A stretch of 64,000 nucleotides of DNA, from positions 14,443,001 through 14,507,000 of the forward strand of contig CM073321.1 of the NCBI GenBank assembly GCA_037043015.1, given 5' to 3'. The translations under genes were made by a program, and so were the position numbers. Origin of the DNA: Bryum argenteum (Eukaryota > Streptophyta > Bryopsida > Bryales > Bryaceae). Of this stretch, positions 207-44,682 are shown piece by piece. The notes under the pieces are model-generated. The model was not told where the DNA came from, made no database searches, and saw only the letters and a program-made list of their open reading frames with translations. How positions within the stretch are numbered: position 1 is the first letter of the stretch; every line of letters starts with the position of its first letter.

Positions 207-334
207 CAGGGATGTCACAGCGTCCGGACGTCCGGACTTCCGTCGGACGTCTGCTAGGGGTGTAAGGACCGTCTCTGACTTAGAGATATTGGACTTTTTA
301 CTAAGAGTAAATGGGCGTTGGGGTGCATTCATTG

Positions 335-612
335 GCCGACCCACCCCGGCGACCGGCCTTCGAGCTGGCCGTCGGCCCGAGCGACCGGTCGGCTTGGCGG
401 CCGTCGGCGCAGGCGACCCGCTGTCGGCGAGAGCGACCAGTTGCTGGTTCGGCCGTCGGGTCGGGCGACCGCCCTTCGGCCCGGGCGACCGGCCTTTGAT
501 TTGGTCGACGGTCCAGGCAACCGGCCTGCGGTCCGGGGGACTGGTAGCCGACCTCGGCGATCGGCCGTTGGCCTGGGCGACCGGTTGCTTCCGGCGACCG
601 CTCGGATTGCCC
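335..612. repeat. GC-rich motif block 1 (outer-element type)
   Basis: Dense GACCGGCC, GACCGGTCGG, GGCGACCGGC and GGCCGTCGG motifs in both orientations, just inside the left end of the outer element and directly upstream of the transposase gene at 633. The open frames across it (for example 196-636) are by-products of the GC-rich repeat and not genes. A perfect 18-bp tandem duplication (GATTGCCCTATGATTTGC, 605-622, then again from 624 after one base) follows it. Confidence 0.85.
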
Positions 613-632
613 TATGATTTGCTGATTGCCCT

Positions 633-3436
633 ATGATTTGCCCGATGAATCTGAGTCATTATAGGTACTTGAAGATTCATGGACATAGGGATTCGAGTTC
701 TGCCCTTTGCCCGAAGCTGTCTAGGGAAATTAGGCAGTTATTATTAAGATGTGGCGGGGAGTTCCCTCCATATAACGGAGAATTGGACGGATTTCTTGGT
801 GAATGTTCTCTCACTCCATCCACGGACGTTCCAGGTACTTCAAAACATGACATTCCAGAAACCCCTAGGAGTGACTCTTGTGTAGGGTCCTCGCTAGGCA
901 CCCCCATGAATTCAACAAATCTTTTGGTTGGGTCAACCTCTACTTCTTCCATGCTTATGAGGGTAATTAAGGATACTCGCTCGATGTTTGGATCTATGAA
1001 GTAAACGAAGCAATCTTCAATTGAAGCTACTTTTGCAGTAGCGGATAGGCGGGAGTTGGATAAACTTTGGGCGAGATTTTTCTACGAAGCAAATATACCG
1101 TTTTCTGTGGCGCGGAATGATGCGTTCAAACAGCTGTGATGAAGACTGCGGGATTTCAAAAATCCTATGCTCCACCATCTTACCATGACATTCGAACAAG
1201 GTTGTTGGGAGAAGTAAAGACCGAGTTACAAAAGAAACTAGATAGTACACTCTCGGAGAGCCTTCGGAAGTTTGGAGGAACTTGGACCATGGATGGATGG
1301 TCATCCGTGACTAGTCGCCTTTTGGTGAATGCGATGCTCGTGACTCAAGCTGGAAAGCTTTTTCTTGGAGCTGTGGATATCACCGGCATAGAAAAAACAG
1401 CGGTGTACGTATCATCTCTCATGTTGAAGTACATAGAACAAGTTGGACCAGAGAACATTGTCCAAGTATGCACAGACAATGCTTCCGTAATGCTCAATGC
1501 CTCCAGAATAGTCCTTGAGAAATATCCGCACATTTTTATGCAAGGGTGTGCGACACATGCAATGTACTTGTTGTTGAAGGATTGGGGAAAGGCCGGATGG
1601 ATGGCGAATACTTTGGTCATGGCGAAGAGAATGGTCAAGTTTATCAAGAGGCGACAAATGCCCTTGGCTGTGTTTCGTAAACACGAGGCGAAATTCAGCC
1701 TACTGATGCCTGAGAAAACAAGATTTGCTAGCCGAGTTAGAATAATAGATCGCTTGTTGGAGGTCAAGACATCATTGGAGCAAGTTGTTGTCGGCCTTAT
1801 GTTCACAGCCTATGCCTCAAAGAAGAAGGTATCAGCTAGAGATAAGCTTATATTCTCCCGTAAGGTCAAAAAGGTGGTGTTGAGCGATTATTTTTGGGAG
1901 CAATGCAAAAGATTACGGGATATGGTGGCCCTTGTAGTCTACGCTCTGAGAGAATTTGACCGCAAGGCTCCTAGTACAGGCAAGGCTTGGCATATCATGC
2001 GTGATCTTGAGAGACATGTCCATACTTTGCATGCACCGCCATTCTCATTGGAACCACTTGAGGTGGCCACCGCAAAAGAGGAGTTTTACCATCGGAAACG
2101 GCTCATGACAACTAATTTACATGGCACAGCTGCACTTCTAAATCCATATTCACTTCATAACCAAGAGTTAGCTGACGATCCCGATCTTACAATAGCTTGC
2201 AAGCATGTTTTACAAAAACTATGTCCCTCGGAGGATTATGCAGACGTGGTGAGTGAATTTCTTGCGTTTCGAGTAAGAGGTCCACCATTCCATACGATGT
2301 TGCAGCCTTAGACTCAAAAACTAGCTCCACATGCATGGTGAGAGTTTGAGGGTGCTTGTACTAAGCTCCTCTCTCCAATTGAAAAGCGAATACTAGCACG
2401 GACAGTGTCCTCGTTGGCTTGCAAACGCAACTGGAGTAGCAACGCTTATGTTCACGACAAGAAACGGAATCGGTTACTACCAGGGAGAGCTGATGACTTG
2501 GTCTACATATATTCCAACTCGAAATTGCTTGCGAATAATAAGTTAAGTGACGATGGGCGGTAGTATAGAGAGAACTTGGATTTAGAGGAAGACCAAGTAC
2601 ATGAGAACGAAAAGGAAGCTGTCGAGGACGAATCAGAGACTGATGACAATGATATTTTTGAATTTGGTGATGAAGACGGTGATATGACTTTCTTCCCCAC
2701 TTCAAATGATGAAGATGCTCCAAATGTTCGCGATGATAATGGTGATTTTATCGCTGATGGTGTTTCGGCGGATGATCTAGAAGATGAGCAACCGTTAGCA
2801 CGATTAATGACACAAGGCGGCCTGGACAAATCGAATAACATCCCACCTGTTATCTCTAGTGGTTTAGGGTTCATTCAAAAAGGAGGCGATAAACGTGAAA
2901 ACCACCGTGTGCAATACTAGTGCCGACACTATGAGCTCTGATCCGGTCGCAGAGAATATCGCATCCGGTAGTAAGGATCAAGTATCTGATCAATGTGCTA
3001 CTCCCGGCGCTTTATTTCAACCCTCTACTGTAAGGGTTACGACAACCTTGGAGAAATCCTCTATAGGTTAGTATCCCTTTCAAGAGCCAAACATGGCAGC
3101 ATCTCTAGTGACTCTGATGTACCTTTGGGCAGGTATTTAAAAAATGCCATTGTTCATCGTACTGCCACGGGGTTACAGCACATGTTTGGCACTTCTAAGT
3201 CGCATAAACAAAAATTTGCAACGTTTCCAATTGTTCCGCCAAAAAAACCAAAGGTCCCTGTTAATCTCTCAGAATTTGATACTTGGCATAAATATGGGAA
3301 TATACAATGTCCAGAGAATAAGCCCAAGATCAAACAAGAGGTTCCGAGCGATTATGAATATGATCCTACGGGGTCTAGTGAATCTGAAGTGAAGGGAGAT
3401 AGCAATTATGAACAATCCTCTGGTCCTGATGAGTAG
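633..3436 (+). pseudogene. hAT transposase (DUF659-like), several in-frame stops
   Basis: Plant-type hAT transposase, the enzyme that would cut and paste these elements. The core at 1136-2311 shows MDGWSSVTSR (first catalytic Asp region) and CTDNAS (second Asp), then GCATHAMYLLL. The hAT dimerisation segment is at about 2395-2530 (KRNWSSNAYVHDKKRNRL). An acidic tail ends at 3436 (SESEVKGDSNYEQSSGPDE). The frame is broken by stops at about 1002, 1137, 2309, 2340 and 2562. The one at 2340 falls where hAT proteins usually have the second Trp of a WW pair. The N-terminal BED finger looks incomplete: only its His/Cys half (ending about residue 26) is present and the CxxC half is not seen. Block 1 sits immediately upstream. 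It converges with the RING gene at 3795-6915. Confidence 0.9.
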
Positions 3437-3794: not shown

Positions 3795-4685
3795 TCAAAC
3801 TAAAGATCCATCCAATTGATTGATCTGAGCTATACTACAAGTACGCGGTCTTTGACTTGGACGGGCAATTCTACCGCCCTCTTCATATTCCCGATCCACG
3901 GCTGCAATTTCGCGGCTCATATCCGCCTGCCAACTATGCTTCCCATCTTGCCTCTTCCACTTTCTGCTAGGATCTACTTGTTTGTTACGTAAGATTTTCA
4001 TGGCCTTCTCGATTCGTGCAATGACATCATATACAATACCTTCGAAATCATCCATTAATATGAATGATCCTTCTTTTGGATATAAAACACATGTCCTCCA
4101 AAACGAAATGGCGTCATCAATACACTTATCAGACTTCTTGACCGCATCCCAATAAGAGAACTCCACATCTTGAAAAGAATTTTCCTGTATCGAAGTCCGG
4201 TATATTCCGGCTTCCTCCAATTTTGCAAGGACCCTAGCTCTTCCAATTGGAGTATGATCGTACTTCTTGTACTCCTCTGCAAAGCCGGTTGAATCTGTTA
4301 TTTCGTGCCAATAACCATCTTCTCCCTTTTCCACTCTCTATGGAGGAAATCGAAAGAAACGTTTGTGTTCAATTCTCCAATGCCCTCCAAAATTACGACA
4401 AAACAACTCTTGTTGCTCTTCGCATGTAATATTCCTCGCCCTTATCTCTATTTCGTAATCTTGTTTCATCCAAAATAAGGGACCTCTTTCCCCACCATAT
4501 TGAATGCTTAGTTGGTGTTTTAATTCGGACGTACTCCACTCAAGTGCATTTCCCCAATCAGAGCAGTGTAGAAATTTCTTTGGGAATTCATCCAGTGGAA
4601 GATTCCATCGGTTGAACTCGTGCCTTGGTGGTATAAGATCTCGTATGCCCATCATCTCGTAGAATCTCGTGCTAAATGGGGAGCA

Positions 4686-4809
4686 ACATACCGGACATAC
4701 CGATTTTGTCATGGCATATCGGCATTTGCAAGTAACGTGAAAGTTATGGCCACATTGGCCCAACTAGTATGCGCCCTCTGGACCAAAATGATGTAGGCAC
4801 ACCGCACAT
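4686..4809 (-). other. RING-H2 zinc finger coding segment
   Basis: Read on the minus strand: CAVC, 13 residues including one in-frame TAG, CGHNFHVTC, then CPVC. Spacing fits the C3H2C3 pattern. The partner copy at 27767-27888 has CPIC, CVHMYHPQC and CAIC without the stop. Confidence 0.85.
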
Positions 4810-6907
4810 TTGTCCTTAAGTATTGCCGGAGGAGGGTCGCATGTGTTGATTACAATGCGAGCTGACTCTTGTAGGTGCAATGAAAATCTATTGTACTGCG
4901 CCCGTCCTTCCTCTATCTCCTAAGTCCAATCAACATCATTGTTTTGCCCCATCTTAGAGTAGTTTGTACGCTCCATCATATCTTTTGCATCCCCCCAAAC
5001 AGTGACCCCTATAGAGTCATATCGTTTTTTTGTATCGTTCTCACGGAACTTCTCCAATGAAGCATCTACAACTTCACGCAAATCTTTTGATTTAGCTACA
5101 ATCAATTTGAGATCGTCTTGTGCCTTCGAACCCAAGGTCTCCCTATCTTGAAGTGGATGAACCCATCCCAACCATGGTAGTGTTCATTCTTGGAGTTGTG
5201 TAGAATATATTGTTTTCAAGGTTTTCCGTAATGCCTTTAATTCAGCGACTGCCTCATCTCTCTCTTTACTTGTAGCCTCCAACTTCATTGACCATGCTTT
5301 TGCATCATCCTCCAATTTTGCAACTGCAACATCTCTCTCCTTATTCACAGCCTCAAACTTCTTTGCCCATGCTCGTGCACCTGCGAGTGCATTATCTCTC
5401 TCTTTATTTGATATCTCCAACTTCATTTCCCACGAACTTTCATCATCGTCTATTTCAATAATGGTCTTTCCCTTATCTTCTTTACCATCCTCTTTACCAC
5501 CCGCATTATATTCTGAAAGAAAAAGACTAGATGAAGTCCCTTGAGTGTCATTCTGTGATGCAACAAACTTGTCACCTTCTTTTGAGTCTTCTAACAAATC
5601 CCGAGTTACACGACGAACTGCTTCTGCATACTTTGCATCAATGTCCAGAGCAGAACGTTTGCCAAACATCTGAATTTGTTGCAATTCAATGTAATACTCT
5701 CTAATGGATTCACACAAAATTTCATTTTGTTTCTTGAGTTTTAGAATGATCTCATGACTTTTCACTCGGTCCTTCACTAGAAGGTGATATCGATATATGA
5801 TTGCCTCATAATTTATGGCAGACTGTAGAACGTTAGGCATGATACCTGCCAAAGTGTGACTCATCTTGACAAAATCGGGAGCCATACTAGCAAGTATTTT
5901 AGACTGCAGTTTCAAGTCAACCCCTATAGCAGCTATTTCCAAAGCCGAGGTTTCTCCCCAATCATTCCCTGGCCAACCATTGTCTTTAGCTACCTCATTG
6001 CACCAATCTGCTATTCCACGTGCGGTGTTCATCCACTCCTCCAATTTCTTATTGCTTAGTACCGTACGCAGAAACTCCTCGAAATTTGGCATCATACCCC
6101 CATTGGGATCCAAATCTAACATGACATTATCATCTGTTGGTGATTTGGTTTCCTCTGGTTCACTTGGCCCTGCCTCCTCTAATGTTGGTATCGTGGTTAC
6201 ATGAGGTTCTCCAACTACTTTTGCATCTTCGAGCCTATCAGTTATGGTTGGTTCTACGGGTGGAGCATCCATGGCAACCATGTTCCTTCCATCCTCCTTC
6301 TGTCTCGAGGTTGTTGGAGGAGAATCCTTCACCGCCGTCTCATGAGATTTTCTCCTCAAGTGTTGCAATAAAGCCTTTGTAGAGCTTGATTCTGGATCAA
6401 ACATATCTGAGATATCCTTTTGATTTCTCCCGATTCGAAGAGGAAATGCACTACTCGCTGTGAATGTGCTCCAGTTCACCTTTTGCTTCAGTATTAGCTC
6501 AGCATACACCATGCACAAAAGCGTATAGGAAAAGGTAACCTTTGCTCTTGGGACGATCTCCAAACAATGCCACCCAACCTTCTTCAACACAATGAAGAAA
6601 TTGATCATCATTGCATGTTTGCGGGTTACAATTAAAATTATTGGTATTCACTTTGTGACATTCCTTAGGGCAAAGTTTCCCAATGTGGTACATCTTCACA
6701 TATTTCTTGCAGCCTTGCAGGTCGCCAATCTCCAGTGTTCCTGCTTTTCTAACTCCCAACCGCTCTCAGCTTTAATGGCCTCATTATTCAAGATCTCCTA
6801 TTGCAACTCATGTCTTGCTCCTTTTGGTTTCACACTCTTTGACGGTGTCTCCTGTAAAACCAACTCCGTCCCCACCAATTGTGCCTTTGTGTTTTCTCTC
6901 GCAGGTG

Positions 6908-6915
6908 ACCTCAAG
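6908..6915. repeat. Left 8-bp target-site duplication of the inner element
   Basis: ACCTCAAG, identical to 36952-36959. Confidence 0.92.
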
Positions 6916-6936
6916 CAGGGTTGTCTTATTAGACAC

Positions 6937-7000
6937 ACTTTTCGGAATGTCTGTCTGATTTGTCGTATTGGACATGTCTGTTAGACGTCCGATCGACAAA
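6937..7000. repeat. Subterminal TGTCTGTCTGA-type repeats, left end of inner element
   Basis: AATGTCTGTCTGA (6948-6960) and further GACATGTCTG and AGACGTCCGA words follow the terminal repeat. Similar words (AATGTCTGTCTGA, TTTGTCTGACGTCTGACAG) occur at about 36890-36930 just inside the right end. Such clustered words are candidate transposase contacts. Confidence 0.6.
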
Positions 7001-7118
7001 AATGTCGACCGTACCAGAAATTACATAGTAAAAAACTTCTTGAGATTGACATTGAGGTAAAACGCTATTTTCCTACGTGGCGTAGGGTTGATAATGACGT
7101 AGAAAATCAAAATACACA

Positions 7119-7400
7119 TCACAGTGGGCGACCGCGGGTGGGCGACGTCGCTAGGCGACCGACGGTAGCACAAAGGCGAACGTCGGTCGCCTGCTGCAAT
7201 CGCCGATCGCCCTGGCTGCCGCGCGTAGGCGACCGGCGGTCCAGTAGGGAGACCGGCGGTCGCCCTGGCAACCGCTACTAGGCGACCGCCAGTCCAGTAG
7301 TGAGCAACCGACGATCGCCCAGGGCGATCGGCGGTCGCCCTGGGGTAGCGCACTTGTGGCGATCGCTGGTCGCCTTGAGCCACCGCGTGTGTGGCGACCA
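7119..7400. repeat. GC-rich motif block 2 (inner-element type)
   Basis: Repeated GGCGACCGGCGGTC, GCCCTGGG and CGATCGGCGGTCGCC words in both orientations, about 200 bases inside the left terminus of the inner element. The frame at 7021-7461 is an artefact of the repeat. Confidence 0.85.
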
Positions 7401-7633
7401 GCACCATGGTTGAATACGAAACAAGCAAGATAATTTCATATTGGTACAAAATGAGCTCCAATGCATGTTTATGAATACCTTTTTATCGGAAACAAGATCC
7501 ATGGTGCATTTCTTAGTACAAATTTGTCCATGTCTATAATCATAGTATTCATATATATGATGTAACTACTACATATACCGAACTATATATATTCTACTCC
7601 GAAACATACTAGGATACCAAAATATTGTAAGCT
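7401..7633. other. AT-rich stretch of the inner element, no gene seen
   Basis: Unique-looking sequence between block 2 and the gypsy insertion. The insertion separates it from 13045 onward, which leads into the transposase 3' end. Confidence 0.5.
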
Positions 7634-7638
7634 AATAG

Positions 7639-7872
7639 TGTAAGAGTCTAGCTGTCAAAACAAGCAAAAACTACAAAAGAAATATATTGATCCAAGACTT
7701 AGGTTTACAATGAATAAGAGTCCCTTATATACTAATCTCTTGGCTCAACTGCCGAGACTATACTTTAGCTCTACTGCCGAGGCTATACTTTAGCTCTACT
7801 GCCGAAGTTCTATTTATAAAATTAATAGCGAGTGAACATCCGAGCTTATCAACGAGGCCTTGGCCCATGACA
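7639..7872 (-). repeat. 3' LTR of gypsy element 1
   Basis: Starts TGTAAGAGTC and ends GCCCATGACA on the plus strand, 234 bp. It has one more copy of a roughly 25-bp unit (ACTTTAGCTCTACTGCCGAG) than the 5' LTR, which explains most of the length difference from the 209-bp partner. Confidence 0.93.
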
Positions 7873-9440
7873 AATGCCTCCTCCTCCTCCTCCTCATGTG
7901 CTGATGAATTAACAAGTGTCATACAAGAGAATGTGCCCAAGGAATATCAAGATTGCAGGCGCGCGCAACAAGCGCTCGTAATCGTCTAAAGCCATGACAT
8001 TTTGTAATTGGCAAACCGGTTTCCCAAGTAGGCTCCGCCATCCTGTCCACTTTACAAGTAGTTGCCAACCGCGTCCCACGACGTCGATGTTGCAACACTC
8101 TTTCAACAAAGATACTCGTCCTCGCTAGTGGATGCCTCGAAAGCGGGATTGCTCAAAACAACACCGGGCTCATTATCATGAGGTAGTTGGGAAGGCAACG
8201 GATCCTCACCGCCTTCTTCACTAAACTCACATGAAAAAACAGGATGAATACCGACGACGGTGTATTCAAACGAACCGCATGTGTACCTACGCACTCCAAT
8301 ACACGATAAGGAGGAGCAATACAATCAAGCTTCTTGATTGGCGGGGCGTGTTGATGTTCTTCAACTTCAACCACACACGATCACCCGGACGAAAATCCTC
8401 GCCACCGAAGTCGTCGTGTATTTGACGCGTTCTTGAGTCTCTTGCGCAATGGCCATTGCCGTTGTTGCCGATTCACTTGAATTACGCCAGATGCTCAACA
8501 AGCTTGCGTCCTTTTTTCCGCCGGTGACAACGAAGAACCCGCCTCCTCGGGTATAGTAATATTCATGACCGAATGATGATAACCGTGAGTCATAAAAATG
8601 CGGACATACCTATAGATCGCGACACACGATTATTCAACGCCATCATCGCGATCGGCAAATCGAAAAGCCCAATCTTCTTGCTCAAATGTCGTGAAAATAC
8701 GAAGATATGTTTCAAGCTCTTGATTCGCCCTCTCTGTTGCACCATCTGTCTCGGATGGAAAGTCGCCGACAACCGACGCGTAATCTTCATCAATCTGCGC
8801 ATACTTCGCTCTAAAGCGGACTAACAAATTGACTACCACGATCCGACACAATTCTGCAGGCAATCCGTGATCTTGAAAAACTTGCTCTAAAAGTTTGTGA
8901 GCCACATCAAGTGCACGAATTGTCTTCATAGGCACAAAGAATGATAGATTTGGACAAACGGTCCATCACAACCATGATATTTGTACGGTCATTGCTTGGT
9001 GCCAATCCGGTAATAAAATCAATGGAGAGCTGGGTCAAAATCCGTGCGGAATTGGCAAAGGTTTTAGCAACCCTTGCTTCGCTTCCCGCCAAATCTTCGA
9101 TTTTCCACACACGCTTGCGCCCGCATAAATCTCCAAACATCTTGTGTCAACCTGGCCACGATATTCACGTGCAATCAAGTCACGCGTACCCTCACGACCT
9201 GGATGTCCTGCTAGTGGTGAATCATGAGTAGATTGGATCAAACGCGTCCAAGAGGTTCGTGCGCGGAATCCATATTCGTCCACGCCAACGCAATCGATGA
9301 CCTGAATCTACAGAACACTCACTAATCGTGATAGGTAAGCCCCATTCTTTAGGTAGTCGGCGCTCACCATCCATAACCGCCTTTCGCATCTTCCAATAAC
9401 GATGATTTGTTTGCAGGGCAACATCCCATAATGCAATCAT
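7873..9440 (-). pseudogene. Integrase and chromodomain region of gypsy element 1
   Basis: Minus strand. An HHCC-like start (HDSPLAGHPGREGTRDLI) is near 9225. Core integrase pieces follow: DFITGLAPSNDRTNI with VVMDRLSKS near 9000, ALDVAHKLLEQVFQDHG near 8880 and ERANQELETYL near 8740. A chromodomain (GRGWQLLVKWTGW, QLQNVMALDDYERLL) lies at about 8060-7965. The chromodomain typically guides integration to particular chromatin. Multiple frameshifts split it into short frames. Confidence 0.85.
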
Positions 9441-9703
9441 CTCTGCGTCAATAAATGGACATATGGGACGCGGGTCATTATCGACTCAGAAAGCGAGAGC
9501 CTCTTTCTCTCGATCGCAACACCATCTCGTGATCCATGCGGATTTAGCGACAACCTTCAAAGCGCCATCATCTCCGTCAAAAGTCATGATATCGATTCAT
9601 GATTCGATCATCATCTGCGTGTTGAAAGATCCTGTTAAAACGAGAAAGTGCATCCGATTGAACTTGATCCTTGCCAGGCTTGTGCACGATCTCAAAGTCA
9701 AAA

Positions 9704-11300
9704 TCATTCAACTCGTAGGCCCAACGCATTTGCCTCTCGCTCAAATGTTGCTTGCTTCTTCAAAAATAAGCCAAATTGCGATGATCTCGAATCGACTTCA
9801 AAATGTTGGCCAACAAGTAATGTACGCCACTCGCGGATGCAATGTACAACTGCTAGCATTTCCTTGTCATGAATCGGATAATTGGACTCCGCTGGACTGT
9901 GTTTCTTCGAGAAATAAGCAACCGCATGCCAAAGTCCGTCCACCTTTTGCATTAAGGTGCCACCAATAGCATAACCAGAGGAATCACATTCAATGGTTGT
10001 TTCCAAACCTGGAGTCCATTTAACGAGCACCGGCGCATGAATTAATGCCTCCTTCAATCGATCAAAGGCATGTTGACATTTCGATGTCCAATGGAAAGGT
10101 TGATCTTTCCGCGTTAGTCGAGTAAGAGGTTCTGCAATGTTAGAATATCCATCTATGAATTGTCGATAATAATTGCAGAAACCTAAAAATCCACGAACTC
10201 CTTTCACTTTTGTTGGCGGCTCCCATTGACGAATTGCCTCAAGTTTTGCTGGATCAGCCTGCAAACCCCAACCGTCTTCACCAAATATCCAAGATACTTA
10301 ATAGTGCCTCGCTTAAACTCGCTCTTATCAAAATCAAGTTGAAGCCTGCGTTAGCAAGCTTACGGATGATCCTCGAGAACGCATCACGATGTTCTTTTTG
10401 AGTATCACTATAGATCACCACGTCATCAATATATGCGGGCAAAGATATATCAATTAATTCGCGAAGTATCCAATTGATATATTCTTTGAAAAGTTGCGAG
10501 TGCGCCCGTCGGTCAAACGGTGTGACCAACCACTCATATAAGCCAAAGCGTGTTTTGAACGCCGTCTTCCACTCGTCACCTTCTTTCACACGTATCCGGA
10601 AAACGCAGAGATTACATCAACCTTGGAGATATATTTGGTCGCAAAGAATGGATCTTAACGTCTCATCAATGCGCGGAATCGGATAGCCGTCCTTCCGACT
10701 CATCTCGTTCAATCGCCGATAGTCAACACGAGAATCGCAATCCTCCGCCAGGTTTCTTCACAAATATGACCGGAGTGCTGCGGGTGAATTACTTACGCGA
10801 ATAAATCCATTATCCAACAACTCCGTAAGGGTCTTGCGCAAAACTAATAATTGATCCTTGGACATCCGATCACGGCGGCATGGCGGGGATGTCATCATTA
10901 GTCTTCCTTCAATAAGATTGATCTCGTGATCAATCCCTTTCCTATCGGGGGCAACGACTTTGCATCTTGTCGATTAAAAGCGTCAATAATCGCATGAGCC
11001 GATCGGGAGCATGTTGTGCGGGGTCCCTATACACCTTCATTGTGTAGTGCCTTCGATGTCAACCAAGCCGGCACTAAAACCTCTACTTGGTTCACCGCTT
11101 CTCCGCAAAGTTTGAATCACCGATGCACGTATCTCTTGCATTGGCTCCAACGTGTCGGTCGAGTCTTCACAATCATCTTGAAAGGTTTTCGAATGCAAAC
11201 CTCTTCTTTAGCAGTCGAACACTTGCATCATGTCGCTCCATCCAACCTTTTCCCAAGATTATATCATCTATCTGTCCTGGAATAACATAGGCAACAATCT
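9704..11300 (-). pseudogene. Reverse transcriptase and RNase H region of gypsy element 1
   Basis: Minus strand. RT shows KTRFGLYEWLVTPF near 10540 and PAYIDDVVIYSD near 10430, the Y-I-D-D active-site motif. RNase H at 10264-9704 includes ECDSSGYAIGGTL and YPIHDKEMLAVVHCIREW. The 5' half of RT (10600-11000) is badly frameshifted but collinear with gypsy element 2. Confidence 0.88.
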
Positions 11301-12651
11301 TCTCCTCCATACCATCAATATCGGCCATAAAATTTGCAATTTGGCAAATCATAGGCCGCCTCTTCATTGTCGTAACTTGCTCCAAAGATCTAGGTTGAAT
11401 AGATGACGCATCCAACCCTCTCCGTCGAACAAATTGCTCGCATACGCTTGCAAAGCATTGGCATCCGAATCACACAAAGCACGAGTAGATATAGTTGAGT
11501 TTATTAAAACATCAACATACATACCACCCGTGTCTAAGCTGTCTCCTAGATTCTTGACATTGCTCTTCTTTCTCACTGCGCGCACTATCGAAGTTTTGTC
11601 CGCGCTCTCTTTCTTCTTCTTCTCATTGCCTTCACCTTGCTTGGATGAACAGTCATTTGCACGGTGGCCTCGCTTCAAACATAAAAAACAGCGTCCCTCT
11701 TGGCGACACCGTTGTTGTTCCTCCAAAGTCGACGCGTCTCCGAAGAAGCTTGCTTATTTGGACTGTAGGCATCCAATCCATCTCATCTCCATCTGACCAT
11801 ACGCGATTTGATGTCGCGATCGGAGCTGCACGACCCTTCTGATATTGCAAGCAATCAAGTTGAAAGCCGACCGCCAACAAAGCTTGGACAAACATACCAT
11901 AATCGATGTACGTCATAGGTCCAATCATCGCGCGTTGCATCTCTGAGTTGAGAGCACCGCGAAGATATCCTATCTTCACCATATCGGGAACCATGGTAAG
12001 TTGACTCTCACCAAGCTCCTTCTCAAAAACTTGGGCAAGAATGTTGCGAATGACTCCCTACCCTCGCTTCATTGCTTGAAGCCGATTCAAATGCCAATTT
12101 CTTTGCATTCGGGTCGATGTAAACGCTATCAAGATGTTGAATAAAAGTCGCCGCATTGCAACCACGTTGATTTTGGTAGAAAGATACTACTATCATCTGC
12201 GCTTTCTTCGCCCATCCTCGAAAACAAGTATGCGGCTTGATCTTGAGGTGTACCAAGTCTGACTCCCATCAATTCAAGCTTGTTATCCGCTTCGACCTTC
12301 CATATCGGGTAGCCCTTGCGACTCCCGTCAAACTTTGAAATATCTGGCAATCGCTTGCGCAATGCGACGACAGTTCCTCCATATTGTTTCTGCATCGATT
12401 GCGGCATCATCTGCGATGAAGACGGACCTCCTAAACTCGTGAATTGTCCAAATTGGAGCCACTGCGCGATCATTGTGCAACCAATCGCTGATAGTCAACT
12501 TCTCAGCTTGCTGAGAAGCTTGAAGTTGTGTGCGCAACCTCACGATCTCCTGTTGATAGTCTTCCGCCGTAATTTCTCCTTGCGCCTGCTGCTGCTGCTG
12601 CAAGATCTCATCATCGATCATCTGGGCGTTCTCCATCTCAAAAAGCAACAC
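11301..12651 (-). pseudogene. gag and protease region of gypsy element 1
   Basis: Minus strand, frameshifted. The N-terminal part starts MENAQMIDDEILQQQQQ near 12636. A gag core follows (DISKFDGSRKGYPIWK near 12340), then a zinc knuckle CFLCLKRGHRANDC near 11700-11650 with CX2CX4HX4C spacing. A protease-like stretch (VDVLINSTISTRALCDSDA) lies near 11510-11455; the usual D[ST]G triad is altered to DSD here. Confidence 0.8.
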
Positions 12652-13039: not shown

Positions 13040-13139
13040 AATAGTTGCCCTACTTGCAGTACACTGTAGTATTGTACTGAGTACTAACAACGAACTTCGT
13101 GCTTCCAATCCAAAATAACAAATTTCTAATAACACGTCT

Positions 13140-14630: not shown

Positions 14631-14639
14631 TGACAGATT

Positions 14640-33434: not shown

Positions 33435-33612
33435 CTCTCAATCAACTCTTCAGGCTTCGCAAAGCCTTCAAATGCGTCCTGTTACGTGGCTATCTTCAAT
33501 CACTACCACGAGGGTGGATAAGTTCCTCAATCTAATCAATGTCCTACTTTTGTCGTTTGAAAAAACAAGGGAGGATGAAGCCCTTCAGAAAATCAAGAGA
33601 AGTCTTGGATTA

Positions 33613-33748
33613 TGTAAGAGTCTAGTTGTCAAAACAAGCAAAAACTACAAAAGAAATATATTGATCCAAGACTTAGGTTTACAATGAATAAGAGTCCCTT
33701 ATATACTAATCTCTTGGCTCAACTGCCGAGGCTCTACTTTAGCTCTAC
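33613..33748 (-). repeat. Truncated 5' LTR of gypsy element 2
   Basis: Matches 12831-12966 of element 1 and stops abruptly at 33748 against WCHI-gene sequence. Confidence 0.9.
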
Positions 33749-34001
33749 AAAACTTAAGATTTGCCTTGTTAGTGCGCCGATGAAAATGGTGACGTGACAG
33801 AGGGAATTTCTTGTCAATGTGACACCATTCAATGAATGATTTGCAAGTGGCCATCGTCCACATATCTGGTTCATCTTCCCAACCTCTGAAGGCAAGCTTA
33901 TTTGGATTTTGAAGCACGTGTAATCTTTTCCGTTGTGGAGCGCCCCTCCTCTTCCTCTTCTTGCCGTTCTCTTCCTTCCTAAGTTGCCCGAGAGTAGCCA
34001 T
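33749..34001 (-). pseudogene. N-terminal WCHI domain of the inner WCHI-RING gene (first piece)
   Basis: ATG at 34001 (MATLGQLRKEENGKKRKRRG). The domain reads KLAFRGWEDEPDMWTMATC, FIEWCHIDKKFPLSRHHFH, RRTNKANLKFC, then is cut by gypsy element 2. A TATA-like box (34127-34135, minus) and GC block 8 lie upstream; the block is shared with the kinase gene at 34615 on the other strand. Later pieces are 27548-28432 and 23709-24239. Confidence 0.8.
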
Positions 34002-34126
34002 GGATGAAATAACCAAAATGGCGAATAGTTATTACGTACCCGGAACGAGCATGCAGCCAATTTAATGGATGTAAGACAGTGCGCCACGCCAGTAAACCCA
34101 AATAAGAAGTTCTTGCACGATGGGGG

Positions 34127-34135
34127 AATATATAG
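34127..34135 (-). promoter_or_regulatory. TATA box of the inner WCHI-RING gene
   Basis: CCCTATATATTCC on the minus strand, about 125 bases upstream of the ATG at 34001, at the edge of block 8. Confidence 0.65.
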
Positions 34136-34144
34136 GGCAACCTC

Positions 34145-34425
34145 GCGTCGGGGCGACCACAGAATCAAGGCGACCGGCGGTCCACATAGAGGTACGACGT
34201 TGCGTGGCGACTGGCGGTTCAGTGAGGGCGCGACCGCAGGTACAGCTGTCGCGACGCAGGAGGTGGGGCGAGTGCCGGTGCAGCTGTCGCGACAGCGGGA
34301 GGTAGGGCGACCGCCGGTGCAGCTGTTTGCGACAGCGGGAGGTGGGGCGACCGCCGGTCCAATTGTCGCGACAACGGGACCTAAGGCGACCGGCCGTGGG
34401 CGAATGTAGGGCGACCGCCGGTCTC
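34145..34425. repeat. GC-rich motif block 8, between two divergent promoters
   Basis: Repeats of GGGCGACCGCCGGTGCAGCTG with GTCGCGACAGCGGGAGGT spacers, plus GGCGACCGGCGGTCCAC. A TATA box sits at each side: minus at 34127, plus at 34431. Confidence 0.9.
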
Positions 34426-34430
34426 CAAGG

Positions 34431-34439
34431 ATATATAAA
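34431..34439 (+). promoter_or_regulatory. TATA box of the kinase gene
   Basis: ATATATAAAC directly after block 8, about 180 bases upstream of the ATG at 34615. Confidence 0.7.
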
Positions 34440-34614
34440 CCCCAACGCGCGGGTTTGATATTACTTTTCCCCAAACCGCTACCGAACTCTCCTCCGCCCT
34501 GTGTCCTTGCTCGTCTTAATGCGCACTGCCGGGTCGTCTGAGGAGTTTTTGGGGTTTGGTGCACATTGATAGCAGGGGGGAGATTTTTTGCCGGTTTTTT
34601 CAACAAGTTCAACG

Positions 34615-36165
34615 ATGAGTAAATCCAAAAAGCACCAGGAGGGAGGGCAAACATGGGATCTTGATGCCCATGAAACATTTGCACCAGACCTTGGTATGCA
34701 ACAACCTAGTGGAAGCGGAGGCCATAGGAGGAAGAGGAGACACCCAAAAGTAGTAGCTCCCGGATTCCCAACAGCAGATTATACTAGGTTTGCGGAAAAA
34801 GCATGCTTGGATTGGTATGAGGAAATGGAGGCTCAATTCTTAGATCACAACTACTTGAAGAATGTTAGCATGGGTAAAGCAAGAGTGGAGAAGAAATTGG
34901 AGGCGGTAATTTTGAAGGCCATGGCGGAATCGGAAGAATTCCAAGATGTGGATTCTCATTTGCAGTACCAGTTGTGGATGGAGAATACAATTGAACAATG
35001 CATTTTCAATGTGAAAGAGTTGTGGAAGAAGCGATTTCGACAGAGGCGTCTAACACAAGAGGAGGACCTGTTTAAATGCAAGATGGATTGGTGGCAACTC
35101 TATGTCCAAAAGCTTAGCAAAAATAAAACCCGAGGGATGTCATGGGAAAAAACCGCTTTGCGCGCCACATTTGAACGAGATACAGGGTCGGGGGTGGTGT
35201 GGATTCCTCAAGACACAACGATAGAAGCTCTATCAGCCCGCGACATGGAGGGAGGCCATGGACTGGTGCGGAAGATGAAGATTGTTGTAGTAGACCACGT
35301 TCCAGGTCATATCGAGTTTGCAGCAAAACTTTCCAAGAATATGAATATTCAGAAGAGGAGGATAGAGACTGCAGCAGAAGCTCTTGTATGTCCTTTGAAT
35401 CATCCAGGAATTATCAAGTTTTGGGCGTTGCATACAAGGACATTCGAGGCTTACTCATATTGGTGGAATGGAGGATCACTACACGAAATGCTGAAGTTGG
35501 ATGAGAAGGTCGGCGACAAACATCTTCACTGATCGAAAGTAAAGGAAGTTCCGAGTCTCACTACACATGAGGCTTTCAGAACTAGCATTTTCCGTCGTCA
35601 TAGGATGAAGTTAGCTTGGGGTTTAGTGTACATCATGAATCTGGTGCATAAGACAGGAGTACTTCACAACGACCTATCCCGCTCAAACATATTATTGCAT
35701 TTCCCAACTATCGGAGAAGACAAGATTTGTATTGGAGTGTGTGACTGGGGGATGGCATCTCTTATAGTAGAACAACAGCCTTCACGTTACGGATACCAGA
35801 CGAAGAAGAAAAAAGACGAAGTTATGGCACGTCGATGGTGGGTGGCGCTCGAGATGTTCTATACTTATGGACCAGAAAGTTCTGATACAAATTTGAACGT
35901 CCAGGAACTTCGACATCCAACCATAGTAGCATCAGATTCGTATGCGGTTGGCAAGCTCATCCAGCTGATTGGTGTGCAAAACGAACTCGACAAAGAATTA
36001 TTCCCGAACTCGACGGTGCGAGAATCATTCCTATGGAAAGTGTTATCACTGACCAGGCATGAATCGGAGAAGAGAATGACCTGTGGGGAGGTGGTGAACC
36101 GCTTGATGGGGAAACCATGTCATATGCTTCCACCGGAGTCTGTATTTAGGGAGGACAATAATTAG
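34615..36165 (+). pseudogene. Protein kinase-like gene of the inner element, one in-frame TGA
   Basis: ATG at 34615 (MSKSKKHQEGGQ). About 516 codons with a single internal stop at codon 306 (35530-35532). A helical N-terminal region (residues 50-200) precedes a kinase domain with AAK (K238), a Glu-rich helix near 251-255, the catalytic loop HNDLSRSNILLHF (D353, N358; HND instead of HRD), and CDWG (D377; DWG instead of DFG). The key Lys, Asp, Asn and Asp are kept, so the ancestor was plausibly active. The family is unrecognised beyond kinase fold. It pairs head-to-head with the WCHI-RING gene across block 8. The outer element carries a homologue at 42713-43950. Confidence 0.82.
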
Positions 36166-36554
36166 TTTATAATATCAGTATATCTTCTTGCAATTCATAG
36201 ACTCCTATGGATGACCAGCTCACGTAATTGAGTGCTCATTTAGCCATGTAATTTACAAATTATACTTGCAATATATACAATCTACTTTTTGGCATATTGT
36301 TCCATTTTTAGTAGATTTTTGCAACTCTTATAATTATGTTCCCTTTTTACACTAGTCACATATGTATGTCACTACATTTTTTGTTACATGAGTTTCAAAC
36401 CTCATGGTTAATGTTAGCCTTTTCTTCAAGGGTTCGTGGATTGTTGTAATTTGTTTCATCTTAAATTCTTAATGCTTCATCTACGTTTGGATAACGCGAA
36501 CGGAAGAATTTTGGGAATGTTGGATAGCAAAATGTACTCGGGGGAAGCCTCCAA
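36166..36554. other. AT-rich 3' flank of the kinase gene
   Basis: No gene seen; likely 3' untranslated region and spacer. Confidence 0.55.
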
Positions 36555-36765
36555 TGCAAGGCGACCCTAGGCGATCACCGGTCCAAGGGCGAAAATAGGC
36601 GACCGCCGGTCCAGCGAGACCGCCGGTCGACCAGGGCGATCGTCGGTCGCTCATGGGCGATTGTCGGTCACTCATGGGCGATCCTCGGTCGCTCATGGGC
36701 GATCGTCGATCGCTCAGGCAATCGCCGGTCCAGCTGAGGGGACCGCCGGTCCAGTCCTACGTGGC
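36555..36765. repeat. GC-rich motif block 9, near the right end of the inner element
   Basis: GGCGACCGCCGGTCCAGC, GACCGCCGGTCGACC and repeated GCTCATGGGCGATCGTCGGTC words, about 190 bases inside the right terminus. It mirrors block 2 at the left end. Confidence 0.88.
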
Positions 36766-36930
36766 GCAGTCGCGCACCGTATTGCTGAGTTGTACACACC
36801 ACGTGGCAGCCACGTAGGATGCAACGTGGACAGGGTAAATCAAGGGTAAAAAAAAGATTCTATAGATTCTATTAGACAATTCTGAGGCTCAATGTCTGTC
36901 TGACATGTCGTGTTTGTCTGACGTCTGACA

Positions 36931-36959
36931 GTGTCTAATAAGACAACCCTGACCTCAAG
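36931..36959. repeat. Right terminal inverted repeat and target duplication of the inner element
   Basis: The terminal repeat is 36931-36951, ending AGACAACCCTG. The 8-bp flank ACCTCAAG is 36952-36959. Confidence 0.93.
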
Positions 36960-37009
36960 GTCTCTTCAGAATCAACCTCCATCTTTGTGTTATCGGTCTC
37001 CGTCGCCAT
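36952..37009 (-). pseudogene. First codons of the outer WCHI-RING gene, separated by the inner element
   Basis: ATG at 37009 (MATETDNTKMEVDSEETL). The frame runs into the insertion and continues at 6907 once the inner element and one target copy are removed. A GATAAAAGG box at about 37203-37211 and block 10 lie upstream. Confidence 0.8.
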
Positions 37010-37229
37010 GAAGAATAGGGAGTATTTAAAATACCCCAAAGATATCTCAGGTACCCAAAAATTCGATGCAGGAGCTGCAAGTATCGCGCTCACTTCTCCT
37101 CGCCACCACAAATGCACCACATGAGAAGCTAATGCCCACGGTTGCAGCCCTGTTGAGGTGGATGGATTCGAGAAGAAGTGAGGGGAAATGAGGCCCAAGG
37201 GCCTTTTATCCCCTAAGTTTACCAACCCC

Positions 37230-37420
37230 AGAGACCGGCCGCACGAACCGGTCGCTCGGCCAATCACGGCCGCGACCGATGCTCGCCAGCCGGTCCGGCC
37301 GACGGATCCTAGTCGGTTGATGCGGGCGACTGATCATGGGTGGCCGATCCAGGCCGCTTGATCTCGCCGACCAATGACGGCCGACCGATCTAGGCGGCCG
37401 CTCTGGCGGGCCACACCGGG
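37230..37420. repeat. GC-rich motif block 10 (outer-element type)
   Basis: GACCGGCCGC, ACCGGTCGCTCGGCC and CGACCGATC words, like blocks 1, 11 and 12 and unlike the GACCGCCGGTC blocks of the inner element. Confidence 0.85.
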
Positions 37421-39929: not shown

Positions 39930-40190
39930 AGTGACCAACCGACCGGTCGCCCGAGGAACCTCGTTGGTCGCCAGGGCAATTGGCGGTCGCCGGGTCGGTC
40001 GCCTGGCCAGTTGCCGGTTGCAGAGTTGGTCGGCAGATCGGTCCCCGGCCGCTTGGATCGGTCGGCGGGCATCAGCGGCCCAGATCGACCGATCAACCGC
40101 GCCATCGGGCGGCCGAGATCGGCCGATCGATCGTGCGGCCCCGATCGGTCGTACAGATCGATCGAGGCCGCTGGATCGGTGATGTGACGG
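39930..40190. repeat. GC-rich motif block 11 (outer-element type)
   Basis: GACCGGTCGCC, GATCGGTCGGC, GATCGACCGATC and CGGCCGAGATCGGCC words upstream of the WCHI gene at 40468. Confidence 0.87.
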
Positions 40191-40251
40191 CTGCCGTATG
40201 GGATCGGACGGCTCGTGTGAGCTGGCGAATGGCGTCCGATTCTCCGGACGG

Positions 40252-40467: not shown

Positions 40468-41555
40468 ATGGATTGGGAAGCATGGAGTGACCCAAACTGC
40501 GTTGCAGAGTCGGGTTGGCGAGAGGAGAGGGCAGACATTTGGAATTGCACCATGTGCTAGAAGTACGTGAAGATGTATCACATAATGAAGTTATGGCCGC
40601 GTCACGAAGCACAAAAATATGGTCCTCGGCGTTAAGGCCTAGTGAAGAGTTGCAAGAACAACCATTTTGCGCATCGATATCATGAAATCACCATTGCGGT
40701 TGGAATTAAGAATACAAGGTCAGAGCTGATGTTGTATTCTACCATGGCCATGGTTTGGGTTGAAATAGTCCTTCACAAGGATATTGACTGGACCACTGTG
40801 ATAGGTTTGAACATGCATTTATTGGATCGCAGCAACCGATTCATTTCAACGAATTGGATGGGACCAAGCGAATGTTATACGACTTATTCAGAACGTTCAG
40901 TTGATATGGATGCCCAACTTCAACAACATGGAACTCCAAGGAGATATGGGTCACCACCCAAGATACAAACCATGACAATCGTCTGGCACCAGTATCCTTT
41001 GGCACATGAAGTGAGGGGTATTACCATGGTAATCACCAATTCGGTACTCCTGTGGGTTATATGCCACCCCATCAGCAAGATATGTACGGAGTCGAACGCG
41101 AATACGGTAGAGGTAAATCTAGTTTGAACTACCTATCTCCAATGTATACAGGAGGTACACATGGTTTAGGAGGTGAGCAGGGTAGCAGATCCAATGTTCA
41201 AGGCAACTCAAGCTCAACTCATCCTATAAACCCATACAATCGTGAGAACCAATACGGTACAGCATTCGGAAGTCCCTATTACCGTAGGCCATCACACCCG
41301 AGGGTTAAATACGAGTATGGAGGCCAATATGATAGAAGATCAGACATTGTTGGCTATATAAATTATGGATATGGTCAGAATGCATTCGGGAGTAACGACA
41401 TACCTTCAGCACCTTTCCTATCTCGTGAGGAAGAAGAGGCGAGGTTCCAACGAGATCTACAACAAGCCACATTACTAACTCAGCAGGAATACATTGAACA
41501 ACTTGAAGGTGAAAGGAACTTTAGGCAAACAAATTTGTTTGGAGAATCGTCTTGA
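40468..41555 (+). pseudogene. WCHI-family gene F with a Tyr/Gly/Asn/Gln-rich tail
   Basis: ATG at 40468 (MDWEAWSDPNCVAESGW). The domain reads IWNCTMC, a TAG, KYVKMYHIMKLWPRH, further stops near 40635, then MVWVEIVL and DIDWTTV. This is closest to the outer WCHI-RING gene (ESGW, KYVKMYHI) and not to the inner-element copies. After a frame change near 41050 the tail (YMPPHQQDMYGVEREYGRG, many Tyr, Gly, Asn, Ser, Gln) resembles prion-like low-complexity sequence. It ends with a Glu/Gln-rich segment at 41555. It converges with the kinase gene at 42713. Confidence 0.65.
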
Positions 41556-42712
41556 GGACCACGTACATACGGAGCTGCACCAAGTCGTAAACAAGATGAT
41601 GTAGACTCAGATGAAGAATGAGTGTATCATCATACATAGTGCCATTATAGTAAAGGTTATGTAGTTTTTTGTAGGAGATGATGCCTACTAACATCATTAT
41701 CGCCTTGCAAGGGGCCAATTTTGAAGATCTTGAAATCTATATTTTGTTTATGAATGGTTATCCGAATGTATGACCATATCAATGATATCATATATTAATA
41801 TTTTATGCAATTTGATAATTTTAAGGGATTTTATCGAAATGTCTTGTATTTTTACTATGAGTGCACTTGGCGGTGATAATTTCTTTTGTTTGGCTGTAAG
41901 CCTCTTTTCACGTTCTCACCTAACATGTGCTAAGTTCCTTAATTTACACAAAAAATGCCATAGGTAAGAAAAGTCATAGTATGCTTGATTTTACTTTGGA
42001 CAAACCATTAATAATGCAACTATGCAAGGTTGATGTAATGAAAAAGTTTCATAGTTCATTATATATCCTCAAATATCGGTCGTGCATGTTTGAAGATATT
42101 TTTATTGAAGGTATTAAGTTGGGTACATCTTTGGAATTGGGTACATGTTGCGATGGTGAGATGTAAATTATAGACTTTTTTAGCTTGAACACTAATGGCA
42201 AATAACAACATACTTGTGAGAATTGTTAGAAATGATTTTATGCAATACTGTAGAAAGCCATGCATGTGTTTTGAATTTGTTTTACGGAAATTACGGAAGA
42301 GAAGTTACTAAGGAGTGCAAAACTAGATACTTCTAACTAATGGAGCCATATGTTAATCTGTAAACCAAAATAACAAACAATGGAGAAGAAGTCATTCATT
42401 GCAAGGTATATCAAAACAAGAATGTACTTAAAGTACCTACATATAAAAGACATGTAATACATTTGAGTCCAAAAAACTGCCTACATCTACATTAGGACTT
42501 CAATGAAGAATCTGAAGAGCTAATAAAGGCGCAAGAACTACAACAGATGTGCGATACTAATTTACTATTCATACTTAGTGCAAAAATGATCATTCGGCAT
42601 CGGCCAATGGAATGATTCCATGAAGCGGTTGACAACGTGGGTCAACGTATAGTTTGCATCCACCACCATCTCCAAGTATTGGTCAAAAGCATTTGCCAAG
42701 TCTTGATTTGAT
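41556..42712. other. AT-rich spacer between convergent genes
   Basis: No gene or repeat recognised; probable 3' ends of gene F and the kinase gene. Confidence 0.55.
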
Positions 42713-43950
42713 TACCGGTCAGGCCCTGTTGGATGTTGCAAATTCTCGTAGGCCGTCGACATGGTCTTCTTGAGAATTCGTTGTGCTATCTGTGCCGTAG
42801 CAAACTCCTCCAAAGCTCTATCAAAGAAGCGAATAACGTCAATGTCATCACTCTCTCTGTACAAGTACGCCACCCGAGGATCCACCCAATATCGTGCTCA
42901 TAGAGTATCAATTCTCTCTTCGGGTTTCGTGAACGTGTACAAGGACCTCATTTTATCATCTATGCTCGTGGTTAACCCCCTATCGCATACACCAAGATAC
43001 ACTTGTGATTCATCTTGAGAGAAGTGAAGAAGTATGTTGTCTGGTGACACATCGTTGTGGAGGTAGTTCATCCGGTGGACTTCACTCATGATATACACTA
43101 AAGCCCAAGCAAACTCAGTTCGTTTTTTGCGAAACCGAACCAACTGCCAAGCTCGAATAAACTCATCATCGGAATGAGGTGTGAGTACGACATCTTCATT
43201 AACATCACCTCCATACTTTGCATCAAGGGCCAACATCGATCCAACCGTCCCGCCATTCCACCAATACGTATAGCCTTGGAACTTATTTGAATGAATGGCT
43301 ATAAAACAAATAACACTTGGATGCTCTATCCTCACGGCAAACGCCTCATTCTGATGCTCCACCTTGGCCAAGTCTGGTCGTGTCACTGCATGGTTGAGAG
43401 TCTTTGCAGCAAATTCCCAGTACTCTTCAATGACCGCAACCCCTCTTATGTGAACTTTGGAAATTGTGCCATAACCACCTCTTAGACTCTTCTTCTCAAG
43501 TTTGATGATACGGACCACTATCAAATTATTCATGCGATATTGCTCGACTAACTTTCCTTCCTCCGTGTTCCACCATTTTATGGAGCCACGCCGGTTTTGA
43601 TTATTAAAATACGGCCTCATCGCCTATTGAAAAGCCTCTGCCTCCAATACCACATTCCTAAACTCCACATTATCCGCTTGATCCGTTTTCCTGGTACTTC
43701 TTCAATATGTCCACATCGTTCTATAGAACATCGATTAATCTATCGTCCAACCACTCTGTAACTCTACGCTTATGAGTCTCCGGTCTCCACACCAGATTTT
43801 AGAGCGCTTCCATCATGAGGGCCGTCATGTCCTCTTTGAATTTGGTAGGGGCTTCTTCTTTGTATCTCATGTATTTGCTGAACAAACGTGAAAGACTGTT
43901 GGCCTCATAAAATTTTACAATTAAATTCTCCTGAATAAAGTTCTTGCACT
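42713..43950 (-). pseudogene. Protein kinase-like gene of the outer element
   Basis: Minus strand, ending at 42713. The open kinase part (43620-42898) has SLRGGYGTISKV (glycine loop), WEFAAKTL (Lys), YLHNDVSPDNILLHF (catalytic loop, HND) and GVCDRG (DRG in place of DFG). A TGA at about 42898 is followed by an in-frame tail (ARYWVDPRVAYLYRES) to GPDR. Upstream, in broken frames, lies an N-terminal helical region (IQENLIVKFYEANSLSRLF near 43920) that corresponds to that of the kinase at 34615. Block 12 lies further upstream, near the right end of the element. Confidence 0.8.
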
Positions 43951-44154
43951 TATTCGATGAGTGCTCCCTACGCTCATGATGAAAAAACGCCGAAGCCCTC
44001 CGGCCTCGATTCCTCCACTGCCCCCAACCCCATGCTTTGGCACCTTTTTGAAAAAAAAATTGAAAATCTCCCCCCTTACAAACAGAAAGACTTCTTTCCT
44101 CCCCAGGATAAAAAGCCAGTAAATGAAAATTAAAAAATTTCCAACCTACATGGC

Positions 44155-44505
44155 CGACCGGCTGACCTAGATCTGACGGTCGCTGGCCGATCGGCCCGAC
44201 TGATCGGACGGCCGGCGCCGATCGCCCAGCCGCGACCAATCGGACGTCCGCGATCGATCGGACGGCCGACGCCGACTGCGATCGATTGGACAGCCGCGAC
44301 CGATCGGACGGCCGACGCCGACCGCGATCGATTGGACAGCCGCGACCGATTGGACGGCCACGACCGATTGGACGGCCGACACATACCGCGACCGATTGGA
44401 TGGCCGACCCCGAACGCGACCGATCGGACGACCGCAATCCGTCGGCTACGACCGATCCGACGCCGTCGGCTGTGGCCGATCGGATGGTCGTGGGCCGCCC
44501 AATCC
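44155..44505. repeat. GC-rich motif block 12 (outer-element type)
   Basis: Regular CGACCGATTGGACGGCC and GCGACCGATCGGACGGCC units of about 17-18 bp, or double that, near the right end of the outer element. Overlapping frames here are artefacts. Confidence 0.9.
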
Positions 44506-44682
44506 AATCAATGGTAACCACCTAAACTCACAACAACACTTTCAAGAGCTAAGATGCGACCTCCAATACGATCTAACGGTTAATAAATTTACTACTGTCA
44601 TAGTAATTCCGATTTACCCCCTGGACGGACGTCCGGATGTCCGACCAAAAAAACTCAAAAGGCGTCCATATTGACATTCGTG

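Follow-up and report, generated by a model that had tools for sequence, protein, structure and literature searches.

Transposons of the hAT superfamily are textbook examples of small elements with one gene. Giant transposons with accessory genes are represented by Polinton, Teratorn, Helitron and Terminon in the accessible part of a review (PMC6431247), whose main text, as far as accessible, is free of the words hAT, kinase and ubiquitin. The available sections of a study of Ectocarpus and other algae (PMC12477816) describe giant KDZ, EnSpm and Sola-1 elements of >10 to >30 kb, which contain nested insertions and, for many families, extra genes. VANDAL elements, according to the excerpted text of PMC10398659, carry repeats of short motifs in non-coding regions, which differ between families. 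We found no description of a multi-gene or giant hAT element in the literature searched, which was largely without subscription papers and without preprints. Here we analyse a stretch of 64,000 nucleotides from the moss Bryum argenteum (the window, C1:14443001-14507000, in an assembly of 258.8 Mb and 25 contigs). The window contains three giant elements, each nested in another, with two Ty3-type copies in the inner one. We think it probable that these are giant hAT cut-and-paste transposons with a recurring, co-evolving gene set that serves the element itself; the structural part of this reading is close to certain.

The inner element ends in a perfect inverted repeat (21/21, CAGGGTTGTCTTATTAGACAC) at 6916 and 36951, and it splits the RING gene of the outer element, parting the first codons from the rest. 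The ends of the outer element are weaker than those of the inner one, matching at 9 of 11 positions (CAGGGATGTCA / CACGAATGTCA), and its target-site duplication is identical at 7 of 8 (GCCGGGAG / GCTGGGAG). When the outer flanks are joined, they match as one continuous stretch the uninterrupted WCHI1 of the inner element, and this empty-site paralogue identifies the outer element as an insertion. The flanks are pieces of a third element, which we assign to the inner subfamily because they match the inner element at 71-86% identity over WCHI1 and the region upstream of the transposase, and because a RING match lies about 5 kb to the left of the window (C1:14437954). The outer element thus interrupts the WCHI1 gene of the third and the inner element the RING gene of the outer, so that three giant elements are nested. 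The original prediction of two separate insertions at 207-44682 and 6916-36951 is borne out at these coordinates by the termini, the duplications and the empty-site paralogue. The outer element consists of about 14.4 kb of its own sequence with the inner element inside, and element lengths in the window are inflated by other insertions, namely two Ty3-type elements and a GC-rich block.

Both elements carry the four gene types first noticed in them (transposase, RING, kinase and WCHI) in diverged versions, with protein identities of 37-50%: 50% for the transposase (136 amino acids, aa), 43% for the RING protein (46 aa), and 37 and 41% for the kinase (101 and 79 aa). The order in the outer element is transposase(+), RING(-), WCHI(+), kinase(-); the inner element, read on the minus strand, has kinase, RING, WCHI3, WCHI2, WCHI1 and transposase. 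Pfam recognises DUF659 in both window transposases (2e-33 and 2e-28), of which the outer one has stops and has lost its start, and a kinase in both elements (2.5e-7 and 3.5e-5). The inner RING-H2 domain scores barely past the cut-off (4e-6). That of the outer element in the window is under it (0.0018) because the frame is broken, and an intact outer-type relative (L028) is over it (4.5e-9). The C3H2C3 zinc-binding pattern of RING-H2 is present (zf-RING_2 in L028, with the spacing read from the sequence).

The first description of the WCHI genes needs two corrections: the inner element has three separate ones, and both RING proteins also start with a WCHI domain. A profile built from WCHI1 and its five database homologues matches inner WCHI1-3, the outer WCHI gene (4.6e-5) and the third element. 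An unexpected match was to the N-terminus of each RING protein (inner 2e-28; outer 2e-8 and 7e-6 in two adjoining frames). WCHI1 itself has 5 homologues at an expectation value (E) of 0.001 among 5.8 billion proteins; a Pfam scan of WCHI gave no match, and a protein search with the coiled-coil part of the outer RING protein gave none either. For the kinase the protein search returned 26 homologues. The catalytic residues K238, E255, D353, N358 and D377 (Lys, Glu, HxD Asp, Asn and DxG Asp) are invariant in 26 aligned rows, a region of about 200 aa at the N-terminus aligns in most full-length rows, and the PDB fold matches listed are kinases. Inner and outer kinases form two separate clades (100/100 support); the position of the outer kinase within its own clade is unsure because its row is long and partial, and in the window it has DRG in place of DWG. 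Public data include stop-free, full-length relatives (P0006 and P0007). Searches of solved-structure sequences with the kinase, of genome contigs for kinase relatives, of viral contigs for kinase and WCHI relatives, and of Rfam at the gathering threshold each returned zero matches.

The same arrangement recurs elsewhere in the genome. A WCHI1 query gave 154 matches, the best of them 88-94% identical over the full length and many stop-free. From the best ones we took, non-randomly, six 27-kb regions around a well-preserved WCHI1 (copies a-f), all of which have the order kinase(-), RING(+), WCHI3(-), WCHI2(+), WCHI1(+), transposase(+); kinase and RING are present only as fragments in copy a, and an insertion splits the kinase in copy b. 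Two of them, d (19,093 bp, duplication CTTACGAC) and e (19,905 bp, duplication CTTTCTAG), are bounded by both termini and a perfect 8-bp duplication, giving a length of about 19-20 kb for inner-type elements; no matching duplication pair was found for copies a, b, c and f within the stretch read. Intronless frames were found for the transposase (1052 aa, b), WCHI2 (526-544 aa; b, c and d), WCHI3 (441 aa; e and f), WCHI1 (234 aa, five of six copies) and RING (520 aa up to a stop, e), and none of the sampled copies is intact in all six genes. The 1052-aa transposase frame (L014) matches PF05699 (hAT dimerisation) above the cut-off (1.7e-6) and PF04937 at 7.8e-40. The outer RING part gave 150 matches at 61-99% identity, of which 14 lie in open frames of at least 900 aa; two copies, g and h, were selected because their frames are long or unbroken. 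Copy h (C6) is complete, with 17,610 bp, ATCTCGCG on both sides, termini matching at 10/10 positions and the order transposase(+), RING(-), WCHI(+), kinase(-) of the outer element in the window. Copy g (C2) shares its first 30 bases with the outer element and has an intact RING frame of 1113 aa. Perfect 8-bp duplications are thus found in the inner element of the window and in d, e and h, the last three being complete copies outside the window.

Linkage of the genes was counted genome-wide; the counts are lower bounds, since each search scored the best ~150 candidates. A same-strand transposase follows 0-8 kb downstream of 57/120 WCHI1-like matches, mostly at 2.0-2.3 kb (controls: 0 upstream, 2 on the opposite strand), and a same-strand WCHI1 follows 4-25 kb downstream of 72/125 RING matches, with a median of 9.75 kb (2 upstream, 7 opposite). 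For the outer type, 38/150 transposase matches have a convergent RING, mostly at 3.1-3.3 kb (controls 0 and 1), and 45/100 of the listed outer 5' termini have a RING inside (controls 3 and 0). A further group of RING matches (17, at 42-46% identity) perhaps represents another subfamily, and 4/17 have a DUF659 match 1-25 kb downstream (controls 0 and 1). Contig C1 (44.09 Mb, 17% of the assembly) is crowded with these genes, holding 96/150 DUF659, 88/120 WCHI1, 93/125 inner-type RING and 90/150 outer-type RING matches; it may be a non-recombining sex chromosome.

The termini themselves are abundant. The genome-wide search suggested by the original prediction found, besides the WCHI1 matches, the inner terminus pattern 303+304 times, and the outer 5' 21-mer occurs 101+118 times at up to 2 mismatches; reversed controls gave 0 in both cases. 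We examined 100 of the 607 inner termini (exact ones only, all on C1 up to 30.6 Mb), which form 28 adjacent head/tail pairs of less than 45 kb. Among the pairs of at least 17 kb, all 15 contain a RING match, 13 a WCHI1 match (one short and partial) and 6 a DUF659 match; the inner element of the window and copies c, e and f are among them. The other 13 pairs, 0.8-11.8 kb long, have no listed RING, WCHI or DUF659 match, which gives them the look of internally deleted derivatives; they were probably moved in trans.

Selection on the genes was estimated as the ratio of nonsynonymous to synonymous change (dN/dS) over the six copies a-f, with RING taken from five copies and its first 520 codons. Pairwise values are 0.37 for RING, 0.39 for WCHI1, 0.42 for the transposase, 0.48 for WCHI2, 0.54 for the kinase and 1.27 for WCHI3. 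Restricted to private changes (sites at which at most one copy deviates), the values are 0.39, 0.35, 0.48, 0.33, 0.40 and 1.94 in the same order, with a one-sided p of at most 0.0024 for every gene except WCHI3. Five of the six genes are therefore under purifying selection and, given the similar values, four of the five cargo genes are held about as strongly as the transposase. The conserved cargo proposed at the outset is thus supported by the single order in six inner copies, the outer order in copy h, linkage above controls and purifying selection on all genes except WCHI3. The in-frame TGA of the inner kinase has no special meaning: copy e shares it with the window, but at this codon copies b, c, d and f encode an amino acid, their stops lying at other places.

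A second feature common to these elements is an array of short repeats near each gene. All ten window genes have 5-10 copies of GACCG/CGGTC in the 600 bp upstream of them, with one array common to RING and kinase in the inner element, and 94 of 123 motif hits fall in upstream or terminal zones, a value reached in 131 of 20000 circular shifts. A 17-bp dyad (GGCGACCGNCGGTCGCC, at most 4 mismatches) occurs 66 times in the 64 kb, of which the eight inner arrays account for 57, the outer arrays for 7 and the third element for 2, with 0 elsewhere; shuffled inner arrays give a mean of 0.69. By array composition the inner/outer division is the best of 495 possible splits. The arrays of copy h are most like one another, and those of copy g are less alike among themselves (0.37) than to those of h (0.44). 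Clusters occur in 6/6 copies at four places (upstream of WCHI2, of WCHI1 and of the transposase, and between WCHI2 and WCHI1), in 5/6 between kinase and RING (not a), in 5/6 upstream of WCHI3 (not d), and at the left end in all five copies in which that end was read (not b). A right-end cluster is present in b, d and e, the right ends of the other copies being unread or without a cluster. Copy h has clusters at its ends and gene starts, with one extra at 12.6 kb. The array between WCHI2 and WCHI1, seen in the window and in a-f, possibly marks an unseen transcript.

We tentatively propose that an element-encoded protein would bind these arrays, probably as a dimer because the motif is a dyad, and switch genes and ends together. 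The WCHI proteins would be sequence-specific anti-silencing or activating factors acting on the arrays, with a logic comparable to that of VANC; the WCHI-RING fusion would carry ubiquitin-ligase activity to the same DNA; the kinase may modify the element's own proteins or a host regulator; and the transposase would cut and paste the derepressed element. More speculative still is a transposon with a regulon of its own, in which WCHI would be a new family of array-binding proteins, the WCHI-RING protein would send element-bound host silencing proteins to degradation and the kinase would time or license transposition. Within each subfamily the array and its reader would then change in step, so that elements might escape both host control and each other.

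Several observations weigh against the conserved cargo or against the mechanism proposed for it. In the examined stretch of C1 only 15/62 RING, 13/60 WCHI1 and 6/61 DUF659 matches lie inside an adjacent listed pair of termini, and 35/62, 42/60 and 20/61, respectively, within 25 kb of a listed terminus. Most of the gene matches in this stretch thus lie outside such pairs. Exact termini alone were listed, and decayed ends are a likely, not proven, explanation; many DUF659 matches are of the outer type, which has other termini. For the kinase, linkage was read from the window and the fetched copies. Copy g, with no WCHI or kinase gene found in the 28 kb read, speaks against a universal gene set; its outer-type sequence ends at the start of WCHI, at position 14,826, a truncation such as a later insertion or deletion would produce. 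WCHI3 shows no sign of purifying selection (9 synonymous and 66 nonsynonymous private changes over six copies), consistent with relaxed or diversifying selection. Every one of the five near-complete kinases in copies a-f is interrupted by a stop, and the codon differs between them. The dyad was derived from the same arrays in which it was later counted, and the array set is incomplete in some copies. A predicted model of WCHI (mean predicted local distance difference test score, pLDDT, of 62) has no fold match in PDB and, with no Pfam match either, DNA binding by WCHI is a guess. The mechanism as a whole is drawn from sequence, and the zinc finger of the transposase itself could bind the arrays.

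This last possibility is the main rival. Since hAT transposases bind subterminal repeats, the arrays may be ordinary subterminal repeats bound by the BED-type finger of the transposase, with those beside the genes serving its autoregulation, and WCHI, RING and kinase proteins would act elsewhere, for instance on host cell-cycle or repair proteins so as to favour transposition. The presence of arrays at the ends as well as at the genes agrees with this explanation, as does a motif that differs between subfamilies whose transposases are just 50% identical. It leaves unexplained the WCHI domain, its multiplication (three genes and the RING gene in the inner type) and its fusion to RING, and we regard it as rather unlikely. 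The purifying selection on most cargo genes, together with the 26 kinase homologues in other sequence data, would also fit a cargo that is useful to the host and kept because carriers fare better, as in some giant fungal elements. The hundreds of copies, many of them decayed, the gene-free terminus pairs and the same kinds of cargo across subfamilies speak against such a benefit, and arrays that tie the cargo to control by the element fit selfish use better; we consider a host benefit improbable.

A cargo of captured host gene material that travels along by accident, in the manner of Pack-type elements, has a parallel in the giant DNA transposons of other superfamilies for which accessory genes are described in the available text of PMC12477816. 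It appears very improbable here in view of intronless frames of 234-1113 aa, a single order in six copies, the presence of the set in two lineages whose versions are 37-50% identical, and purifying selection; the genes, judged by frames and selection without a host paralogue search, do not present themselves as host gene fragments. The window does contain unrelated insertions (the two Ty3-type copies and the GC-rich block), as would a chance pile-up in which the gene set is a coincidence. That explanation is ruled out for practical purposes by the genome-wide linkage with its low controls. The giant hAT transposon with a gene set in its own service remains our preferred reading.

The features of the three elements are collected in Table 1. 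Inside the inner element lie two Ty3-type copies (7639-13042 and 28433-33748) that are 96% alike; the one from 7639 has AATAG on both flanks, and the tested frame of the one from 28433 contains a chromodomain. A GC-rich insertion of about 3.4 kb (24246-27702) splits the inner RING gene, and two frames tested from it had no Pfam match. Beyond the third element, 46390-59888 holds two Ty3-like stretches in opposite orientation, 75-85% alike, and 60766-62746 has minus-strand frames that we read as resembling the remains of another transposon, for which a Pfam scan gave nothing.

Table 1. Features of the nested elements (window positions).
Feature	Position	Strand	Remarks
Outer giant hAT element	207..44682	+	termini, 7/8 duplication, empty-site paralogue
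Outer target-site duplication, left copy GCCGGGAG	199..206	.	
Outer target-site duplication, right copy GCTGGGAG	44683..44690	.	
Inner giant hAT element	6916..36951	-	perfect 21-bp termini, 8-bp duplication
Inner target-site duplication, left copy ACCTCAAG	6908..6915	.	
Inner target-site duplication, right copy ACCTCAAG	36952..36959	.	
Third, inner-type element, left flank = WCHI1 start	1..206	+	hit by outer element
Third element, right flank = rest of WCHI1 and region upstream of transposase	44683..46389	+	
Outer hAT transposase (DUF659)	645..2922	+	internal stops, zinc finger start missing
Inner hAT transposase, N-terminal half only	13216..14244	-	intact 1052-aa relative L014
Outer WCHI-coiled coil-RING-H2 gene, main part, broken	3798..6915	-	intact 1113-aa relative L028
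Outer RING gene, first codons, MATETDNTKMEV	36952..37009	-	compare MATDIDNTNMEV in L028
Inner RING gene, N-terminal WCHI domain	33750..34001	-	E 2e-28
Inner RING gene, coiled coil and RING-H2	27703..28269	-	zf-RING_2 4e-6; 152 genome matches
Inner RING gene, C-terminal part	23712..24245	-	position in relatives
Inner WCHI1	15290..15883	-	
Inner WCHI2, broken	18494..19856	-	526-544 aa frames in 3/6 relatives
Inner WCHI3, frameshifted	21974..23276	+	441-aa frame in 2/6 relatives
Outer WCHI gene, diverged, broken	40468..41555	+	E 4.6e-5; homologue in complete copy on C6
Outer protein kinase, broken	42568..43977	-	pieces E 1e-99, 4e-12, 5e-12, 3e-6
Inner protein kinase, one in-frame stop	34615..36165	+	
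Array, inner left subterminal	7100..7420	.	
Array upstream of inner transposase	14440..14635	.	
Array upstream of inner WCHI1	16100..16410	.	
Array between WCHI1 and WCHI2, no recognised gene beside it	17090..17565	.	matching cluster in 6/6 copies
Array upstream of inner WCHI2	20040..20270	.	
Array upstream of inner WCHI3	21565..21820	.	
Array between divergent inner RING and kinase	34130..34430	.	
Array, inner right subterminal	36540..36775	.	
Outer array, left end and upstream of transposase	310..600	.	
Outer array upstream of RING	37220..37410	.	
Outer array upstream of WCHI	39930..40200	.	
Outer array, right end and upstream of kinase	44150..44515	.	

These elements indicate that the hAT superfamily can become complex, with a cargo of four to six genes, hundreds of copies and selection acting on them. 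They offer a setting for testing whether a putative ubiquitin ligase and a kinase carried by a transposon act against host silencing, and the common arrays give a directly testable prediction about the co-ordination of genes and ends within one transposon. To our knowledge, no RING or kinase genes are known from VANDAL elements. The present elements resemble VANDAL and its VANC proteins in having family-specific repeats of short motifs in non-coding regions, to which binding is here predicted by analogy with the available account of that system (PMC10398659); they differ in that VANDAL is Mutator-like, whereas the transposase here is of the hAT type, and WCHI has no shown relation to VANC. With the algal KDZ, EnSpm and Sola-1 giants they share large size, nested insertions and additional genes. 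Those giants belong to other superfamilies, and in the available sections of PMC12477816 hAT is not named among the giants and has a table row of 0.05%. Ac/Ds-like elements of the hAT superfamily likewise have 8-bp duplications and short termini of CAGGG type, subterminal repeats, and a transposase in which DUF659 and a hAT dimerisation region occur; the elements described here differ from them in their 17-20 kb, in carrying four to six genes where those have just a transposase, and in arrays that stand at the genes.

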